NCBI GenBank assembly: GCA_012522415.1
Contig: JAAYKM010000083.1
Location: forward strand, 1-43,222
DNA from: Deltaproteobacteria bacterium
GTDB lineage: Bacteria; Desulfobacterota; Syntrophia; Syntrophales; JAAYKM01
Length of the DNA: 43,222 nucleotides
Reading direction: 5' to 3'
Shown: piece after piece, positions 25,027-43,222 of the stretch
Layout: each line of letters opens with the position of its first letter
Position numbering within the stretch: position 1 is the first letter of the stretch
The notes under the pieces: model-generated
Told to the model about the DNA's origin: nothing
Databases searched by the model: none
The model's input: the letters and a program-made list of their open reading frames with translations, nothing else
Position numbers and translations under genes: made by a program

Positions 25027-25234
25027 TTTTATGGTTTAAAGAAAGGGATTTGTCAACAGGCATTCATCCTCTGTCGCCTGTGCACCCTGGGGAGAAACCC
25101 AAATTCTCTTTCCGGGTTGGGCCGTTGGAGAATTCATGGCACCCATGCGTGGGAACGGCCTATACAATCCGGCGGCAAGGTTTGGCTGAGCTGCGGAACG
25201 GAAAATTCAAGGGCTTAATTTCTGAGCTTTTTTC

Positions 25235-25261
25235 TTGACAAGGTGCCCGTCCTGGTATATG
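25235..25261 (+). promoter_or_regulatory. Candidate rnf operon promoter
   Basis: TTGACA (25235-25240) and TATATG (25256-25261) are 15 bases apart, short of the usual 17, so this match is tentative. A start near 25268 would give a leader of about 210 bases before rnfC, containing the hairpins at 25332-25380. Confidence 0.35.
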
Positions 25262-25331
25262 GAGCGCGGCAGTGCTTCAATAAGCGGTTGGCTTTGCCCG
25301 GACAAGAGAACATTGAAATGACTCGCTCGTG

Positions 25332-25380
25332 AAGCGGGGTGATTCCGCTTGATACAGGGTTCCGTATCAGGGACAAGCGG
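25332..25380 (+). promoter_or_regulatory. Structured leader before rnfC with two possible folds
   Basis: AAGCGG (25332-25337) can pair with CCGCTT (25345-25350). The same CCGCTT can instead pair with AAGCGG at 25375-25380, enclosing GATAC (25351-25355) paired with GTATC (25364-25368). The two folds exclude each other, as in switch-like leaders. TCTTGATATATC follows, and then TCTTTT near 25396. I cannot assign a known riboswitch class. This is a structural inference from base complementarity. Confidence 0.4.
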
Positions 25381-25478
25381 TCTTGATATATCGGGTCTTT
25401 TATACTTTACAACGGGCCAACCGACGCTGCTGGGGGGCTGTTGATAGGAATCACGTTATATACGGAAGGCTTAGACGC

Positions 25479-26813
25479 ATGATCAGTACAATTACCAGGA
25501 CATTCAGGGGCGGGATTCATCCCCCCGACCACAAGGCTCTGTCTGCCGCCAAGGCAATTGAAGTCATGCCTCTGTCCGCACGGGTGGTGATTCCCCTGCA
25601 GCAGCATATCGGCCGGATTTCCGAAGCCATTGTTCAGGTCGGGGACCGGGTACTCAGGGGACAGCCCGTCAGCAAACCAAGTGGACCGGTTTCCGTGTCT
25701 TCTCACGCCTCCCTGTCTGGAACAGTGAAGGCCATCGAATCGTACCCTCATCCCCTGGGGCAGGCGGCGCCTGCGGTGGTTATCGAGTCCGACGGCCTGG
25801 ACGAACCCCATATAGATTTTGCTTTCAATTCCAAATACATGTCTTTAACGCCGGAAGAGATGAAAAATCTCATTGCCGACGCCGGCATTACCGGCATGGG
25901 CGGCGCGACTTTCCCCACCCATATCAAACTCATGCCGCCGCAGGACAAACCGATCGATACGGTCATTTTGAACGGCGCCGAATGTGAACCGTACCTGACG
26001 TCCGATCATCGCCTGATGTTGGAATATCCTGAAGATATCGTTCATGGCCTCCGTATCATTATGAAGGTGCTGGGCGTAACGAAGGGGTTTGTTGCGATCG
26101 AAAAAAACAAACCGGATGCCATCGCCATATTCTCGGAACTTCTCAAAAACGATGGGCAAATTTCACTTTGTCCATTGAAGGTCAAATACCCCCAGGGTGC
26201 GGAAAAGCAACTGATTTATGCAACAACTCGGCGTCAAGTGCCGGCGGGAAAGCTCCCCATGGAAGTGGGATGTGTGGTTCAGAACGTGGGAACCGCCAAG
26301 GCCATCTATGAAGCCGTCGCTTTCCAGAAACCCCTGATTGAACGGGTGGTCACGGTAACGGGAGCGGTCCGGGAACCAAAAAATCTTCTGGTGCGAATCG
26401 GGACTTCCGTTCGGGAACTGATTGAGTATTGTGGTGGGTTTAGGGAGGAACCCGGGAAGGTTATCATGGGCGGTCCCATGATGGGGATAGCCCAGTTCAC
26501 TCTCGATGTGCCGATTATCAAGGGTTCGTCCGGCATTGTCGTGATGAGCCGAGGCGAAGTGAAGGAATACGAACCACAGGAATGTATTGCCTGCGCCCAG
26601 TGCGTCGATGTGTGTCCCATGAATCTCATGCCGACGCTGATCGTCAGTTACGTGGAGAACGAGCGCTGGGATCTGGCCAAGGAGGCGGGCATTATGAACT
26701 GCATGGAATGCGGATCCTGTGCTTTTGTCTGTCCTGCCGGCCGGAATGTTATGCATCTGATGCGCTTCGGAAAATTTATGGTTCAGGAAATGGAAAAGGC
26801 GGAGAAGAAGTAA
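25479..26813 (+). CDS. rnfC: Rnf complex subunit C
   Basis: RnfC is the peripheral NADH-side subunit of the ion-translocating ferredoxin:NAD oxidoreductase. In 444 residues it has the HPPDHK start, a barrel-sandwich hybrid domain near 25-110, a Rossmann-like region with GITGMGGATFPTHIK (about 137-151) and NGAECEPYLTSDHR, and two 4Fe-4S motifs near the C-terminus (CIACAQCVDVCP and CMECGSCAFVCP). The frame is open to 25383; ATG 25479 has GGAAGG nine bases upstream and matches the family start. It leads an operon in the order C-D-G-E-A-B, as in acetogens and many Desulfobacterota. Confidence 0.95.
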   Translation: MISTITRTFRGGIHPPDHKALSAAKAIEVMPLSARVVIPLQQHIGRISEAIVQVGDRVLRGQPVSKPSGPVSVSSHASLSGTVKAIESYPHPLGQAAPAVVIESDGLDEPHIDFAFNSKYMSLTPEEMKNLIADAGITGMGGATFPTHIKLMPPQDKPIDTVILNGAECEPYLTSDHRLMLEYPEDIVHGLRIIMKVLGVTKGFVAIEKNKPDAIAIFSELLKNDGQISLCPLKVKYPQGAEKQLIYATTRRQVPAGKLPMEVGCVVQNVGTAKAIYEAVAFQKPLIERVVTVTGAVREPKNLLVRIGTSVRELIEYCGGFREEPGKVIMGGPMMGIAQFTLDVPIIKGSSGIVVMSRGEVKEYEPQECIACAQCVDVCPMNLMPTLIVSYVENERWDLAKEAGIMNCMECGSCAFVCPAGRNVMHLMRFGKFMVQEMEKAEKK

Positions 26814-33974: not shown

Positions 33975-36900
33975 ATGGAAGTAACGAGGAGAGGTTTCTT
34001 AATCGGATCAGGAGTGGCCCTGTCCTCTCTTGGTCTGAACTTGGCACCCCTGAAGGCTCATGCCGCCGGGTTGACCAAGATGGACCGGATCCGGACAGCC
34101 AGACAGTCTACCACCATCTGTTGTTACTGCTCGGTCGGATGTAGTCTGATCTGCAGTACCGACAAGCTGACCGGCAAGATCTTCAACATCGAAGGTGATC
34201 CCGATCACCCCATCAATGAGGGATCACTCTGCGCGAAGGGTGCCGGCTTTTTCGCTCTGACCGAAGCCAACGAGCATCGTCTGAGGAAGGTCCTCTACAG
34301 GGCGCCGAAAAGTGACAAATGGGAAGAGAAGGACTTGGACTGGACCTTTAAACGAATCGCCCGTTTGATCAAGGATACCCGCGACAAGGATTTCGTTGTC
34401 CGAAACGGCAAGGGTGAGCTGGTCAACCGTGTAGAATCCATCGGACATTACGGTTCCTCCAACATCGGTAACGAAGAGTGCTGGACCCTGAGCGTGGCCT
34501 GTCGCGCCATGGGACTCGTCAACATCGACCACCAGGCCCGGGTCTGACACAGTCCCTCTGTGGCGGCTCTGGGAGAGTCGTTTGGACGCGGTTCGATGAC
34601 GAATCATTATTGTGATTTGAAAAACAGTGACTGTATTCTGATCATGGGCGGCAATACGGCGGAAAACCACCCGATTGCCTTCAAATGGATCCTTCGAGCG
34701 AAGGACCAAGGCGCCAAGGTCATTCATGTTGACCCGCGCTTTACCCGGACCTCGGCCCGCTGCGATTATCATGTGCCGATCCGTTCGGGTACGGACATCG
34801 CGTTTCTCGGCGGCATGATCAAGTACATTATCGACAACAACCTTATCCATGAAGAGTATGTCAAGTATTACACCAATGCTTCGCAGATCGTCAGCTCCGG
34901 CTTCGATTTCAAGGACGGCCTTTTTTCCGGATACGATGCGGAGACAAATAAATATAACAAGGAAACCTGGACCACGGAAAAGGACGCCACCGGGATCCCG
35001 GTTCGCGATTACACGCTTCAGCACCCACGCTGCGTCTATCAGGTGCTGAAAAAACACTACGACCGCTACACACTCGACAAAGTTTCGTCGATTACCGGTG
35101 TGCCGAAGGACCTGCTTCTTCGGGTTTACAAGGATTTCGGAGCCACCGGCGCCAGGGATAAGGCCGGGACCGAATGCTACGCTCTGGGATGGACACACCA
35201 TACGGTGGGTAGCCAGAACATCCGGACCATGTCGATTGTCCAGTTGCTCCTCGGTAACATGGGGATCGCCGGAGGCGGCATCAACGCTCTACGCGGGGAA
35301 CCGAACGTTCAGGGATCGACGGACCACGCCATCCTGTACAATTTGTTGCCCGGTTACCTGAAGATGCCCTATGCGTCCATGGGGACTCTGCAATCATACA
35401 TGGACAAGTACACCACGAAATCCAACGACCCCCTATCGGCCAACTGGTACCAAAATTATCCCAAGTACACCGTCAGCTTCCTGAAAGCCATGTTCGGGGA
35501 TAAGGCCAGCGCGGAGAACGACTTCGGATATGCCTGGATTCCGAAACTGGAAGAGAACAAGGCCTATTCATCCATGCACACCTTCGACGAGATGTATGAG
35601 GGCAAGATCAAGGGTTACTTTGCCATTGGCTCCAACATCGCCGTCAGCCAGCCAAATGCCGGGAAGGTTCGTAAAGCCCTGCAGAAGCTGGACTGGATGG
35701 TCAATGTCAACATTTTTGATAATGAAACCGCTTCGTTCTGGAAAGCCCCCGGCGTCGATCCGGCCAAGATTGACACGGAAGTATTTCTCCTGCCGGCAGC
35801 AGCCACCATGGAAAAAGCGGGAAGCCAAAGCAACAGCGGCCGCTGGGTTCAGTGGAAGTACAAGGCGGTCAATCCTCCTGGAGACGCCCTGTCCGATGGC
35901 GATATCACCATGCGGATCATGGATGCCCTGAAGGATCTCTATGCCAAGGAAGGCGGAGCCTGTCCGGAACCCATCCTGAATCTGAAATGGGATTACAAGG
36001 ATGCGGCGGGAAATTTTGATGCCCTGAAGGCGGCGAAGGAGATCAACGGTCATTTTCTGCAGAATCTGGTTGCCGATGGAGGAGATAAGGTTTCCAGGGG
36101 AGACCTTGTTCCCTCTTTTGCCCGATTGATGGCCGATGGTTCAACTTCCAGCGGTAACTGGGTCATGGCCGGCAGTTTCGATCAGAAAGGTGAAAACAAG
36201 ATGGCCAAGCGCGGCAAGGAAGATCCAACCGGGCTGGGTCTGTTCCCCAACTGGTCCTACGCCTGGCCCCTTAACCGTCGCATTCTGTATAACCGAGCCT
36301 CCTGCGATCTTAACGGGAAACCCTACGATCCCAAGCGGAAGCTTCTGGAATGGACGGGAGATAAATGGGTGGGCGACGTGGCCGATGGGCCGTGGCCGCC
36401 TTTGGCGGATAAAGAAAAGGGCCGCTTTCCCTTTATCATGAAGGCCGACGGTGTAGGCGCCATCTTTGGTCCGGGCATGGTCGAAGGTCCCTTCCCGGAA
36501 CACTATGAGCCTGTGGAAGGACCCCTGGCGAAAAATCCGATGTCGTCACAGCGCTTCAATCCCGCCGTGAAATTGTTCAAGAGCGATATGGACAGGATGG
36601 CCAATGCCGACGAAAAATTCCCCTACGTCTGCACGACCTACTCCTGCACCGAACACTGGTGTACAGGCTTCACACGCTGGCAGCCCTGGCTTCTGGAGAT
36701 GCAGCCGGAAGCTTATATTGAAATCAGCGAGCAGCTTGCGGGAGAATTGCGCATCAGGAACGGTGAGCGCGTCAAGGTTTCCTCGAGCCGGGGAGCAATG
36801 GAATGCGTGGCCATGGTGACCAAGCGTTTGACGCCGTTTACGGTGGAAGGCAAAGTCGTCCATCAGGTGGGTATGCCGTTCAATTATGGCTGGCGTTTCC

Positions 36901-37010
36901 CTGAAGACGCCCCTGACGCATCGGCCAATTACCTGTCAATTGCCGTGGGTTGCCCCAATACGTACTGTCCCGAGTACAAGGCATTCATGGTTAACGTCAG
37001 CAAGGCATAA
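33975..37010 (+). CDS. fdhA: Formate dehydrogenase alpha subunit, selenoprotein
   Basis: This is a molybdenum/tungsten bis-MGD enzyme interconverting formate and CO2. The 1011-residue reading includes an in-frame UGA at 34545-34547 as selenocysteine 191, in the context ARV-U-HSPSVAALGESFG, exactly where FDH-N/O-type enzymes carry it. Downstream coding continues in the same frame with the active-site MTNH motif. A Tat signal (TRRGFLIGSG) gives periplasmic export. The 4Fe-4S ligands are Cys49, 52, 56 and 86. The start has a GGAGG-like site (AGGAGGG) about six bases upstream. It leads an operon with fdhB and fdhC, as in FDH-N type respiratory enzymes. Annotators often split such genes at the UGA. 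Confidence 0.95.
34545..34590 (+). other. UGA selenocysteine codon and adjacent SECIS-like region
   Basis: The UGA at 34545-34547 and the sequence right after it resemble the E. coli fdhF/fdnG arrangement, TGACAC followed by a C-rich then G-rich stretch. Possible pairings include CACAG/CTGTG (34548-34561) and TCCC/GGGA. I could not model a definitive loop, so the RNA element is inferred from position. Confidence 0.55.
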
Positions 37011-37023
37011 AGGGGGATAGGAT

Positions 37024-37800
37024 ATGAAAACAGAAATGATAAAGATGATCGACCTGTCTCGCTGTACTGCCTGTCGCGGCTGCCAGGTCGCCTGCAAGCA
37101 GTGGAATGAACTGCCGGCATCGAAGACGAATAATTGGGGAAGTTATCAGAACCCCAAAGGCTTGGAATGGAATACATGGACCCTGATCCGTTTTCAGGAA
37201 TATGTGGATCAGGAGGGTACCCTGAAGTGGCTGTTCCGGAAAGACGGCTGTATGCATTGCAGCGACGCGGCCTGCGTCAAGGTTTGTCCCAGCGGGGCGC
37301 TCTATAAGACCGATTTTGGTTCCGTAGGCGTGAAACCGGAACTCTGCATCGGCTGCAAGGAATGTATCGCGGCTTGTCCGTTCGACATCCCGCGTTATGA
37401 CGCGAAGACGGACAAAATTTACAAGTGCGATCTCTGCGAGTCCCGCTTGGCTGCAGGAACGTCTCCGGCATGTGTTCTTTCTTGTCCCACGGGAGCCCTG
37501 CAGATCGGCCCCAAAGATGCCATGATTAAAAAGGCCTATAAGCGTGCAGAAGAGCTGGGCGGAGATGCATCGGTTTATGGAGACAAGTTTGTCGACGGTA
37601 CCCATGTTATATATGTTTTATCGGAAAAAGTGGACGTATACGACGAGTTGCCGGCGAAACCGAGTGTGCCCCTGTCCATCATCGCCTGGAAGGATCTGCT
37701 GAAACCCCTGAGTCTTCTTGCCGCGGGAGGTGTCTTGGCGGGGTCGTTCCTCCACTACATCATCCACGGGCCGAAGACACCGGATGAAGACAATCAATAA
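37024..37800 (+). CDS. fdhB: Formate dehydrogenase beta subunit (iron-sulfur)
   Basis: This electron-transfer subunit has 258 residues. Four cysteine-rich motifs are visible: CTACRGCQVAC near 14-24, CMHCSDAACVKVCP near 77-90, CIGCKECIAACP near 112-123 and CDLCESRLAAGTSPACVLSCP near 135-155, which would hold four 4Fe-4S clusters as in FdnH. A single hydrophobic helix lies at about 225-247, the membrane anchor of FDH-N beta. It lies 13 bases after fdhA and 17 before fdhC; AGGGGGATAGG precedes the ATG. It passes electrons from the selenoprotein to the cytochrome b. Confidence 0.94.
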   Translation: MKTEMIKMIDLSRCTACRGCQVACKQWNELPASKTNNWGSYQNPKGLEWNTWTLIRFQEYVDQEGTLKWLFRKDGCMHCSDAACVKVCPSGALYKTDFGSVGVKPELCIGCKECIAACPFDIPRYDAKTDKIYKCDLCESRLAAGTSPACVLSCPTGALQIGPKDAMIKKAYKRAEELGGDASVYGDKFVDGTHVIYVLSEKVDVYDELPAKPSVPLSIIAWKDLLKPLSLLAAGGVLAGSFLHYIIHGPKTPDEDNQ

Positions 37801-37817
37801 AGGAAGGGGTGAAGAAG

Positions 37818-38477
37818 ATGAAGAAAGGCTTAATCAAGGCAACGGATGCGTTTGAACGTATCGTACACTGGAGTCTGGCGCTGTCGTGCCTCCTTTTGTG
37901 CATCACTGGTCTGGGGATGATGTTTCACTCCTTCAATTTTGTCGGTGACATGATGGGTGGGCTGCGGTCGCTGAAATATGTCCATAATTTTGGCGGGCTG
38001 TTTTTTGCGGTATCCCTGTTTTTTGCGATCCGGATGTGGTGGAAAGAGGCGGGTATTTTTTCTCTTCCCGAGGACATCGAATGGATCAAGGCGGCAGGCG
38101 GATACCTGTGGCATGTGGATGAGGTGCCGGAAGTTGGGAAATACAATCCCGGCCAGAAGGCGTACTTTTTGGTGGTGGCGGGTTTCGGGATCATCATGGT
38201 ATTAACCGGACTGATCATGTGGTTTCCCCTCAATTTCCCCTCCGGGTTGGTGCGCTGGCTGTATGTGCTGCATGCCTTGGGTTTTGTGACAATATTCGCG
38301 TTCTTTTTCGTTCATCTTTATCTGGGAACGATTGGTTCTCCTGGTTCGGCTCCGGCGATGTTTACAGGATGGGTGACGCGAGCCTGGCTCAAGAAGCAGC
38401 ATCCCAAGTGGCTGAAGGAGATGGAGGAGAGCGGTACATTGGTTGTGTTTGGCGAGGAAAAAGGCCAAGGTCATTAG
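37818..38477 (+). CDS. fdhC: Formate dehydrogenase gamma subunit (cytochrome b)
   Basis: The 219-residue membrane protein is related to FdnI/FdoI. It has four helices (about 15-35, 57-75, 115-135 and 147-170). Histidines His17, His56, His152 and His166 are positioned as ligands of two hemes b. It links formate oxidation to the quinone pool, or quinol to formate production when run in reverse. ATG 37818 has AAGGGG upstream and is preferred to GTG 37809. A terminator-like hairpin follows at 38526. Confidence 0.9.
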   Translation: MKKGLIKATDAFERIVHWSLALSCLLLCITGLGMMFHSFNFVGDMMGGLRSLKYVHNFGGLFFAVSLFFAIRMWWKEAGIFSLPEDIEWIKAAGGYLWHVDEVPEVGKYNPGQKAYFLVVAGFGIIMVLTGLIMWFPLNFPSGLVRWLYVLHALGFVTIFAFFFVHLYLGTIGSPGSAPAMFTGWVTRAWLKKQHPKWLKEMEESGTLVVFGEEKGQGH

Positions 38478-38525
38478 AGCATCCGCAGGCAAAGCTTGTC
38501 AGACTCAGATTTATGCAACGCTTAC

Positions 38526-38566
38526 CGTATCGGGACGGACCGGTGTGTCTGTCCCGATACGTCTTT
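38526..38566 (+). terminator. Strong hairpin between fdhC and fdhE
   Basis: CGTATCGGGAC (38526-38536) pairs perfectly with GTCCCGATACG (38551-38561), an 11-bp stem with a 14-base loop, followed by TCTTT. This resembles an intrinsic terminator lying between fdhC and fdhE, so fdhE may be expressed at a lower level or from readthrough. Confidence 0.6.
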
Positions 38567-38601
38567 AAATATTGTACTGTCCCTGGAAAGGAATGTCCGC
38601 A

Positions 38602-39477
38602 ATGGAAAGCCCTGACGACCGGATCCACATGCTGAAGGAAGATGCGGAGCGCATCAGAAAAGAAAAACCCCATGTCGGGACACTCCTTGACGCTTTTATG
38701 CCGGTCATCGAGAATGAAATCGTCATGGGGGAGCGGATAGCGGCCAAAAACGTCACCCTGTCTCCGGACAGGCTGAAAACCATGGGAGGAATCCCTATAA
38801 TCAGGGAACACCCCCTGTTTTTAGAAGACGATCCCTGGCAGGATCTTGTCGATTCCACGGGGGAGGCAATTCGGGAGGGCTTTCCCCATCTGGCGGAGGA
38901 GATGAATCGCCTGACCGCCTATCTGCACCAAAATCCCGGAGAACCGGGCTGCATCTACAAGAGATGTACGTTGGCAGATGAAGATAAAATGTCTGCTTTG
39001 GCCGCCGAAATTCAGGTAGGGCCCGTTGTTCTGTCATTGCTGCTCAATTCGGTTCAACGCATCGTCTTGACGGGTCGCGCCAAGAACATGGCAAAGACTC
39101 TTGTCAATCTTCCATGGAGCAAGGGCTACTGCCCTGTTTGCGGAAGTTTTCCCATGCTGGCCTTTCTCCGGATCAACGGTCAACGCTGGCTGCATTGCAA
39201 TGGTTGCCACCACGAATGGACCTATCCCCGGCCGCAATGTCCCTGGTGTGAACACGAAACCCCGGAAGACACGACCTATCTGTTTGTGGAGGATGACAAG
39301 GAAAACTCTGCTTATGTCTGTGAAAAATGCAGGAAATATCTCGTTACTGTAAACCGGCCGGAAAACATGCGGGAAACCGACCCCGATTTGCCGGCGATCA
39401 GCCTTGCCCATCTGGATGTGATTCTGCAGGAAAAGGGATTCTCCCCCATGGCCCTGCGTGAATGGAACCAATTCTGA
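38602..39477 (+). CDS. fdhE: Formate dehydrogenase accessory protein FdhE
   Basis: FdhE is needed for activity of Tat-exported respiratory formate dehydrogenases in E. coli, where it binds the catalytic subunit before export. The 291-residue product has four CxxC pairs in the C-terminal half (YCPVCGS, HCNGCHHEW, CPWCEHE and VCEKCRKY), which bind metal in the family. GGAAAGGA nine bases upstream favours ATG 38602; ATG 38593 is an alternative. It is about 125 bases downstream of fdhC, after the hairpin. The stop is UGA, and the frame stays open with many cysteines for about 75 codons more (see findings). Confidence 0.93.
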   Translation: MESPDDRIHMLKEDAERIRKEKPHVGTLLDAFMPVIENEIVMGERIAAKNVTLSPDRLKTMGGIPIIREHPLFLEDDPWQDLVDSTGEAIREGFPHLAEEMNRLTAYLHQNPGEPGCIYKRCTLADEDKMSALAAEIQVGPVVLSLLLNSVQRIVLTGRAKNMAKTLVNLPWSKGYCPVCGSFPMLAFLRINGQRWLHCNGCHHEWTYPRPQCPWCEHETPEDTTYLFVEDDKENSAYVCEKCRKYLVTVNRPENMRETDPDLPAISLAHLDVILQEKGFSPMALREWNQF

Positions 39478-39783: not shown

Positions 39784-41961
39784 ATGGATGGCAAAGACAA
39801 CCACGAACCTATGGAACGATCCCTTCGATTGATGGGAATCAGGGAATCCGGATCTTTGAGAACCCTGAAGGCGGTACCCGGTTTCAGGGACGAAATTAAC
39901 GAAATCATGGACCAGGCCAGGCGTGAAAACCGAACTTATCTTATGGAGTACGAGTGCAAGGAAATACTGGAAACACTGGAAATGACCACCACCGGCTGCC
40001 ACATCGCCGGTTCAGAAGACGAAGCGGTTGAAATCAGTCGATCCATTGGCTATCCTGTCGTTCTTAAAATTGTCTCTCCCGATATTATCCACAAAACCGA
40101 TGCGGGCGGTGTTAAGCTGAACTTGCAGAGTGATGATGCCGTAAGGGAGACCTATCGGGCGATGATGCAGGCTTTCAAGTACCAGCATGTTATCGGTGTC
40201 GCCGTGCAAAAGATGGCGGAAGCGGGTTTGGAAGCAATCATCGGTGTCACCCGTGACGAGAATTTCGGGCCCGTTCTCATGTTCGGTCTCGGGGGCATTT
40301 TCGTCGAAGTTCTAAAGGATGTCACCTTCCGCATTCTGCCTGTCACCCGGGAAGAAGTGGAGAGTATGATCGGGGAAATCAAAGGGCACCCCCTTCTTGA
40401 AGGCTACCGGAATCAAAAGGTGGACCGTGAAGCCCTGATCGATCTTCTTCTCCGTATATCTGATCTGGTGACATGGTTTCCGGAGATTCGTGAACTCGAC
40501 CTCAATCCGGTTTTCCTTTATCGGGAGGGAAACATCGTCGTCGATGCCCGGATTTTTATTGGGCCCATCCCGGAAGCTCAAATCGCTTCCGATCCCGCCG
40601 GGAACCTGCACGGTCTTTTTTATCCCCGGAGTATCGCTGTTTTGGGCGCATCGGGGGAGATGGGAAAACTCGGCTACAATGTTTTCCGGAACCTTCTGTC
40701 CCATGACTTTCAGGGGAAACTCTACCCGGTCAACCCCAAGGGTGGAGAGGTCCAGGGTGTCAAAGCCTACCGGAAAATCAGCGAGATTCCCGCTCCGGTC
40801 GATCTGGCCATCGTTATCGTTCCTGCCGCCGTCGTCGAAAAAGCGATTTCCCAGTGCTGTGAAAAGGGGATCCAATATATTGTCGTCGAAACGGCGGGTT
40901 TTGCTGAAACCGGAGAAGAGGGCAAACTGGCCCAGAGCCGCATCAGGGAAATCATCGCAAAAACAGGGGCGCGACTGTTAGGTCCGAACTGCTCCGGCGT
41001 AATCAACACGCATCACAACATGGTCCAATCCATCGGGCTGATCCAGGAAATGAGGAAAGGCAATATCGCGATGATCGCTCAGGCCGGTGTGTATGCAGCG
41101 GGCATGCTTACGGGACTCCGCCATGTCATGGACTTTGGTGTTGTGGCGACCATCGGGAACAAGATGGATATCAGTGAAACGGACATTCTCGAATATCTGG
41201 GCACCGATGACCACATTGACGTGATTTCCATCTACATGGAAGATGTGACAAGTGGTCGGCGGTTCATTGATGTGGCCAAGAAGGTGACCGCCGTAAAGCC
41301 GGTCATCGTACTCAAATCGGGGCGGACAGAAGCGGGACGCAAGGCCGTCGCGTCACACACGGCGTCGTTGGCCGGAAACGATGAAATAAACGCCGCCGTC
41401 TTCCGGCAAAGCGGGATCATTCGCGCCCGGGACAACGAACACCTGTTCGGTCTCACGAAGGCCTTTGCCCGTCAGCCCCTGCCCAGGAAAAACAGCGCCC
41501 TCGTCGTCACTTACACGGGTTCCCTCGGCGTGGCAGCAACCGATACCCTGTACATTAACGGCATGCGCCTGGCCGACCTGGAACCGGAACGAAAGGAACG
41601 TCTCCGGAGGATACTGCCGGACTATGTCAAAAGCCTCAACCCCGTTGATTTTTCCTTCAGCATGGATGCGGATCAGCTGACACGGACGCTTCAACTGGGC
41701 ATTGACAGCGATGACGTGGGGGGGTTGATCGTGGTTCTCCAGGGAGAGATCCTCGGGACTTTCCTGGAGCCACTGAAATCGCTCGATTATCAGGGAAAGC
41801 CCATTCTAACCTGTGTTGCCTGCAAGGAATTCATGATGGACGATGTAATAGCGATGGAAAAGGCGGGGTTTCCTGTTTATTCCACTGTCGAGGCGGCAAC
41901 GGAAGCCCTGTCCGTCATGTACCGATATGGGCGGTACCGGGAAGGGCACAACGATCATTAA
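39784..41961 (+). CDS. ADP-forming acyl-CoA synthetase (fused beta-alpha)
   Basis: This enzyme couples acyl-CoA hydrolysis to ATP formation from ADP and phosphate. The 725-residue fusion has an N-terminal ATP-grasp half (about 40-270, with PVVLKIVSPDIIHKTDAGGV and GPVLMFGLGGIFVEVLKDVTF), then a CoA-binding and ligase half (SIAVLGASGEMGKLGYNVFRNL, LLGPNCSGVINTHHNM). His525 in ASHTASLAGND is the expected phospho-histidine of such synthetases. The order is ATP-grasp first, reverse to the alpha-then-beta order of many fused family members. ATG 39784 has GGAAAGGA nine bases upstream, so it is preferred to ATG 39736. The substrate acid is unknown. It converges on ribF with a 4-base overlap. Confidence 0.88.
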   Translation: MDGKDNHEPMERSLRLMGIRESGSLRTLKAVPGFRDEINEIMDQARRENRTYLMEYECKEILETLEMTTTGCHIAGSEDEAVEISRSIGYPVVLKIVSPDIIHKTDAGGVKLNLQSDDAVRETYRAMMQAFKYQHVIGVAVQKMAEAGLEAIIGVTRDENFGPVLMFGLGGIFVEVLKDVTFRILPVTREEVESMIGEIKGHPLLEGYRNQKVDREALIDLLLRISDLVTWFPEIRELDLNPVFLYREGNIVVDARIFIGPIPEAQIASDPAGNLHGLFYPRSIAVLGASGEMGKLGYNVFRNLLSHDFQGKLYPVNPKGGEVQGVKAYRKISEIPAPVDLAIVIVPAAVVEKAISQCCEKGIQYIVVETAGFAETGEEGKLAQSRIREIIAKTGARLLGPNCSGVINTHHNMVQSIGLIQEMRKGNIAMIAQAGVYAAGMLTGLRHVMDFGVVATIGNKMDISETDILEYLGTDDHIDVISIYMEDVTSGRRFIDVAKKVTAVKPVIVLKSGRTEAGRKAVASHTASLAGNDEINAAVFRQSGIIRARDNEHLFGLTKAFARQPLPRKNSALVVTYTGSLGVAATDTLYINGMRLADLEPERKERLRRILPDYVKSLNPVDFSFSMDADQLTRTLQLGIDSDDVGGLIVVLQGEILGTFLEPLKSLDYQGKPILTCVACKEFMMDDVIAMEKAGFPVYSTVEAATEALSVMYRYGRYREGHNDH

Positions 41962-42989
41962 AGGATCTTGATGACTCCTCCTTCCCTTTGTTGTTTCTGC
42001 CTCCCGAAGGGAAGGGGGAGATCATCTTTCTCCCCGCCGCTCAGGTAGGGCTTCAGCAACGTCTTGCCGATGGCGATATCCTGCCGGATTTGTCTTACCA
42101 GTTCCTCCGCCGATGGAAAGCGAAGCTCATCCCGCAGCCGATCTATAAAATAAACCTGAAGGGCCTTTCCGTATATGTCACCGTCAAAATCCAGAAGATG
42201 GATTTCGATCGTCATCTCGCTGTCGCCGAAAGTCGGGTTGTAACCAATGTTCAATACGGCCGCGTATCGTACATCCTGCAACAGGACAACGGCTGCATAA
42301 ACGCCTGTCCGGGGAATCAGCACCTTTTCGGGTTCCAGATTGGCCGTCGGAAAACCTATGTCTCCCCCGCGTTGATGCCCCCTGACGACTGTTCCCCCCA
42401 AATTATAAGGACGCCCCAGGCAATCGGCCGCCTCTTTGACTTCTCCAGCGAGGATCAAATTGCGGACCAGGGTACTGCTGATGATCCTATCTCCGACTTT
42501 CACGGCATCGATCACCGTGACCTCAAACCCCAGATCTTTTCCGAACTTTTCCAGCAGCTCCTGATTGCCTTCCTTGCCTCGTCCGAAGGTATAGTCATGT
42601 CCGATGAAAACTTTTTTCACCCGAAAGTGTTGCCACAAGACGTCGCAGATAAAAGCGCGTGCCGTTGTCTGAGCGTAATCCAAGGAAAAGGGGATGAGAA
42701 AGACGGCATCGATGCCGATCTCTTCAAGAAGGGCCATCTTCTCTTCCAATGTCGCAATCAGATAGAAGGGGCGCCGTTCAGGGTGAAGCACCATTTTGGG
42801 GTGCGGTTCGAAAGTAATCACGACGGCTTTGGCGTTGACTGACCGCGCCTCCGTGATGATCTGATTGAAAATGTATCGGTGTCCTACATGGATCCCGTCG
42901 AAGTTGCCGATTGTGACATATGCGTCACGGAACTCAGATGAAATGTCCTTGGGGGATTTAAAGATTTCCATGGGTCGAAACGTCAGCAC
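41958..42989 (-). CDS. ribF: Bifunctional riboflavin kinase/FAD synthetase
   Basis: RibF phosphorylates riboflavin to FMN and adenylates FMN to FAD in the cytosol. In 343 residues, the N-terminal FAD synthetase domain has VTIGNFDGIHVGHR (about 25-38), FIGHDYTFGRGKEGN near 132 and SSTLVRNLI; the C-terminal riboflavin kinase domain has VVRGHQRGGDIGFPTANL near 200-217 and the YNPTFG segment. GTG 42989 follows GGAG; ATG 42971 (MEIFKSPKD) is also possible. The C-terminal 40 residues are charged and longer than usual. The FAD it makes is the donor used by ApbE for the Rnf flavins. Confidence 0.94.
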   Translation of the reverse strand: MLTFRPMEIFKSPKDISSEFRDAYVTIGNFDGIHVGHRYIFNQIITEARSVNAKAVVITFEPHPKMVLHPERRPFYLIATLEEKMALLEEIGIDAVFLIPFSLDYAQTTARAFICDVLWQHFRVKKVFIGHDYTFGRGKEGNQELLEKFGKDLGFEVTVIDAVKVGDRIISSTLVRNLILAGEVKEAADCLGRPYNLGGTVVRGHQRGGDIGFPTANLEPEKVLIPRTGVYAAVVLLQDVRYAAVLNIGYNPTFGDSEMTIEIHLLDFDGDIYGKALQVYFIDRLRDELRFPSAEELVRQIRQDIAIGKTLLKPYLSGGEKDDLPLPFGRQKQQREGGVIKIL

Positions 42990-43089: not shown

Positions 43090-43176
43090 GCCGAAGTGGC
43101 GGAATTGGTAGACGCGCTAGGTTCAGGGTCTAGTGGGCGCATGCCTGTCCGGGTTCAAATCCCGGCTTCGGCACCA
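43090..43176 (+). tRNA. tRNA-Leu (anticodon CAG)
   Basis: The 87-base gene folds as a class II tRNA. The acceptor stem is GCCGAAG/CTTCGGC, with D-arm GGAATTGGTAGACGC, anticodon arm CTAGG-TTCAGGG-TCTAG (anticodon CAG) and an extended variable arm (GGGCGCATGCCTGT). T-arm: CCGGG-TTCAAAT-CCCGG. CCA is encoded at 43174-43176. It closely resembles E. coli tRNA-Leu(CAG) in layout. A CRISPR repeat begins 14 bases downstream. Confidence 0.97.
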
Positions 43177-43190
43177 TCTCTATGAGCCGT

Positions 43191-43222
43191 GTTTCAATCC
43201 ACGCTCCCGCGAGGGGAGCGAC
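43191..43222 (-). CRISPR. Terminal type I-C-like CRISPR repeat at window edge
   Basis: Read on the minus strand, this 32-base unit starts GTCGCTCCCC, has the stem GCTCCC-CTCGC-GGGAGC and ends GTGGATTGAAAC, the hallmark of I-C-type repeats. Read in crRNA orientation the sequence after GAAAC is the tRNA end, not a spacer, so this is the leader-distal end of an array extending to the right, outside the window. No second repeat is visible; cas genes are not in the window. Identity as an array rests on the repeat sequence alone. Confidence 0.8.

Follow-up and report, generated by a model that had tools for sequence, protein, structure and literature searches.

The window analyzed here is the whole of contig C83 (43222 bases), from an assembly of 158 contigs (2.36 Mb, 98.9% complete, 2.38% estimated contamination). 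It raises the question of what a single CRISPR repeat represents at the very edge of a contig, next to a tRNA gene. The final 32 bases of the contig, GTTTCAATCCACGCTCCCGCGAGGGGAGCGAC (43191-43222, minus strand; GTCGCTCCCCTCGCGGGAGCGTGGATTGAAAC as read on that strand), form a complete subtype I-C repeat whose last base is also the last base of C83. A tRNA-Leu gene ends at 43176, 14 bases before the repeat starts at 43191. Both the position of the repeat and its distance from the tRNA agree with the preliminary description of this DNA. As RNA, the repeat folds into a 7-pair stem (-13 kcal/mol, z -2.0). No further copies of it were found in the window (0 expected, 100 shuffles), and searches of the genome found neither a second copy with up to three mismatches nor a second copy of its 14-base end, GTTTCAATCCACGC, with up to one mismatch. 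A CRISPR array is recognized by multiple direct repeats with spacers of about equal length between them; here the genome has one copy, and the contig stops at the first repeat.

To identify the element, we turned to other genomes. The same 32 bases recur without mismatch in 15 stretches, with 1 to 90 copies per locus, mostly at 65-70-base intervals; most of these stretches carry 2 to 90 regularly spaced copies, with spacers of 33-38 bases. Because of this recurrence, the sequence comparison identifies the 32 bases at the contig end as a CRISPR repeat and not a chance match, in agreement with the first reading. The titles of these stretches include Desulfobacterales, Acidobacteria, Sphingomonadales, Planctomycetota, and gut bacteria such as Candidatus Fimimorpha. 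A Christensenellaceae genome has one copy of the exact 32-mer on each of two adjoining stretches (L016 and L018). Three stretches (L011, L014, and L023) encode a type I-C (Csd2-type) Cas7 above the NCBIfam cut-off near arrays of the exact repeat, and the Cas7 near the exact repeat of L010 scored below the I-C cut-off. Among 59 relatives searched with up to two mismatches, the repeat was present only in G032 and G033, besides the window's own genome (G000). It was not found in two genomes of the same genus (72-75% complete) with up to two mismatches, nor in plasmids and viral contigs. The copy in G032 (L009 4352-4531; G032:C192) has two mismatches to that of the window and adjoins copies of another repeat-like sequence, whose end is ACAAGGATTGAAAC; the two may form a mixed array or be neighbours by chance.

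Our analysis identified subtype I-C effector genes in the same genome, on a contig separate from the window. Contig C80 encodes cas3-cas5c-cas8c-cas7c, and the I-C signature set, cas8c (Csd1) with cas5c and cas7c, was tested with the models TIGR01863, TIGR01876, and TIGR02589, all of which scored above cut-off: Cas8c/Csd1 with 395 bits (NCBIfam cut-off 219), Cas7c/Csd2 with 311 bits (cut-off 182), and Cas5c with 241 bits (cut-off 85). These effector genes have open frames. Downstream of cas7c there is a short phage antirepressor-like fragment (L027 9735-10124; G000:C80) followed by an IS element, which appears to be of the IS3 type as read from the start of its transposase. C80 ends within this element, 470 bases past cas7c and without a physical link to the window, and no degenerate repeat was found in its tail within the error limit used. 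No I-C cas1 was found in this 98.9% complete assembly, the sole Cas1 belonging to a separate locus on C36, and no convincing I-C cas4 was found, the sole Cas4 match lying inside a 916-residue frame. The I-C adaptation genes of this genome either lie in an unassembled gap or have been lost, and a gap in the assembly may account for the missing cas4 and cas1; I-C loci that consist of effector genes alone still count as members of the subtype. The separate locus (L007 17076-18267; G000:C36 about 25075-26266; L003) looks like subtype I-E, with Cas6e-like, Cas1, and Cas2 frames and an array of about 20 repeats, ATGTTCCCCACATGCGTGGGGATGAACCG, with a 61-base period, cut at the contig end.

The closest operon found to that of C80 is encoded in G033 (L008 5691-15514), a genome of the same taxonomic order, and runs cas3-cas5c-cas8c-cas7c-fic-cas4-cas1-cas2-leader-repeat. 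Protein identities between the two operons are 75% for Cas3, 72% for Cas5c, 58% for Cas8c, and 67% for Cas7c. The G033 cas1 matches the I-C model TIGR03640 with 541 bits, an A/T-rich leader lies between cas2 and the repeat, and the first repeat after them is identical to that of the window at 31 of 32 positions. The G033 contig then stops in the first spacer, 16 bases past the repeat. Whereas G033 has a complete operon, with fic, cas4, cas1, cas2, and leader, C80 breaks in the IS element at the point from which G033 continues with fic, followed by the adaptation genes. The cargo of the gap between cas7c and cas4 thus differs between these orthologous operons, being a Fic-family protein in G033 (L008 12227-13273; G033:C52) and the antirepressor-like fragment and IS3-type element in the window's own genome.

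Taken together, the repeat matches repeats located beside I-C cas genes in L011, L014, L023, and G033, and it resembles those of subtype I-C (Dvulg type; cas3-cas5c-cas8c-cas7c-cas4-cas1-cas2) in its length, stem, and GTGGATTGAAAC end; in addition, I-C effector genes are present in the same genome. The locus differs from this subtype in that cas4 and cas1 were not detected in the assembly, an IS element interrupts the operon past cas7c, and the array is not readable. Since the orthologous G033 operon carries a repeat one base off that of the window, it fixes both the subtype and the orientation. The leader of G033 comes before GTCGC, with the GAAAC end of the repeat directed away from cas2. 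Since GAAAC is directed towards the tRNA in the window, it is the trailer side that adjoins the tRNA, with the array and its leader on the right. The subtype and the orientation proposed at the outset are therefore both supported, and the 32 bases probably constitute the trailer-end repeat of an array extending rightward beyond the contig.

We then considered how an array came to lie beside this tRNA. The tRNA-Leu(CAG) gene (43090-43176, plus strand; ARAGORN, Rfam RF00005) is preceded by ribF, which encodes a bifunctional FAD synthetase/riboflavin kinase (41958-42989, minus strand; PF06574 and PF01687). The window also has a formate dehydrogenase-type gene group (34560-39477), which encodes a molybdopterin oxidoreductase, FdhE, and an iron-sulphur subunit whose anchor is of the formate dehydrogenase N type. 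The ribF and tRNA-Leu(CAG) genes lie side by side in nearly all relatives of the same order that were examined and have the locus. This synteny, kept across the order, indicates that the tRNA is a resident gene and that the array arrived downstream of it rather than bringing it along. Sequence downstream of the tRNA differs among all relatives compared, and several of them have a hairpin and a T-run immediately after it. The 14-base junction of the window, TCTCTATGAGCCGT (43177-43190), has no terminator-like hairpin, and no terminator was seen between the tRNA-Leu and the repeat, suggesting that the array, or a rearrangement bringing it, replaced the terminator or parted it from the tRNA.

These observations bear on the earlier suggestion that the tRNA gene might be an insertion point. 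The 3' ends of tRNA genes are common targets, used by many integrative elements, and an array carried by such an element at the tRNA-Leu 3' end, with the junction just inside the attachment site, would add to the explanation by a trailer-end repeat. The 14-base distance and the loss of a terminator present in several relatives are consistent with this possibility. However, no second tRNA-Leu 3' end (attR) was found in the genome beyond a second tRNA-Leu-type gene on C42, the sequence downstream of the tRNA differs among all relatives compared, what adjoins the tRNA is an array trailer and not an integrase gene, and the contig stops at the repeat, leaving no sequence beyond it in which an integrase could be sought. 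We therefore consider an integrative element unlikely, and the tRNA, resident across the order, was not borne out as an insertion point. The gene neighbouring the tRNA in G001 (a TonB-dependent receptor by eye) was tried as a marker for what would lie beyond an insertion, and was uninformative, as its only match, on C6, is 26% and not an ortholog. A tRNA habit of the repeat was also rejected: among the array stretches, tRNAs occur only on L015 and L019, both are different tRNAs, and they lie at least 145 bases from the array. A CRISPR repeat adjoining a tRNA gene is in itself unremarkable. Among the titles and abstracts listed, none dealt directly with contig breaks at CRISPR repeats or with tRNA-linked I-C arrays.

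The single copy in the genome, and the lack of detected I-C cas1 and cas4 in a nearly complete assembly, could also be explained by a solitary repeat, either a remnant of a lost array or the product of a single off-target integration, with no functional array beyond. We regard this as quite improbable, since all 32 bases of the copy are intact and the contig breaks off precisely after them, which fits sequences that diverge where a repeat meets a spacer. An assembly break at that point is not expected from a lone repeat, and the I-C effector genes of the same genome have open frames.

The trailer-end repeat of a longer array also agrees with how contigs of this assembly end. C80 (17974-18123) and C82 (9212-9338) share their terminal 127 bases, which belong to an IS element, and this suggests that contigs of the assembly overlap by a word of 127 bases. 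In that case, the repeat, the junction, and most of the tRNA, which together make up the final 127 bases of the window, would be a branching word whose alternatives start at the first spacer base, and the sampled strains would share the tRNA-repeat junction and differ in the next spacer. It is also possible that the contig ends because of low coverage. Contigs break at repeat edges elsewhere too, in the genome's own I-E array on C36 (2 bases past a repeat) and in G033. A further proposal builds on a junction shared by strains that differ in the adjacent spacer: the array would have replaced the tRNA-Leu terminator, and read-through from the tRNA, antisense into the array, could influence crRNA levels; we consider this very unlikely. 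Least credible is an assembly chimera, in which the tRNA end of the contig was misjoined to the CRISPR repeat of another organism: the assembly is fragmented, has some estimated contamination, and places the repeat at the very end of a contig, but the closest operon found to the genome's own I-C operon has a nearly identical repeat, and the apparent overlap is longer than repeat and junction together, which makes a join through 32 bases unlikely.

We thus consider it highly likely that the window ends in the trailer-end repeat of a type I-C array located downstream of a resident tRNA-Leu(CAG), with its spacers and leader missing where the assembly stops, presumably because the assembly graph forked or came to an end where repeat and spacer meet. 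The array would read from right to left, on the minus strand, and further repeats would be expected to follow. It would be transcribed from a leader at the right, and Cas5c would cut the transcript within the repeats; the guide RNAs would be loaded onto a Cas5c-Cas8c-Cas7c complex, and Cas3 would destroy the target. The four genes of this pathway would be those on C80, which, together with the array, may form one active system. We regard the feature as the edge of an ordinary I-C array, exposed where the assembly broke, and its importance is small: it indicates a second CRISPR system in this genome, of subtype I-C, besides the I-E locus, and explains why the contig ends where it does. It may also help in ordering contigs, with C80 and C83 possibly adjoining each other through the unassembled array.
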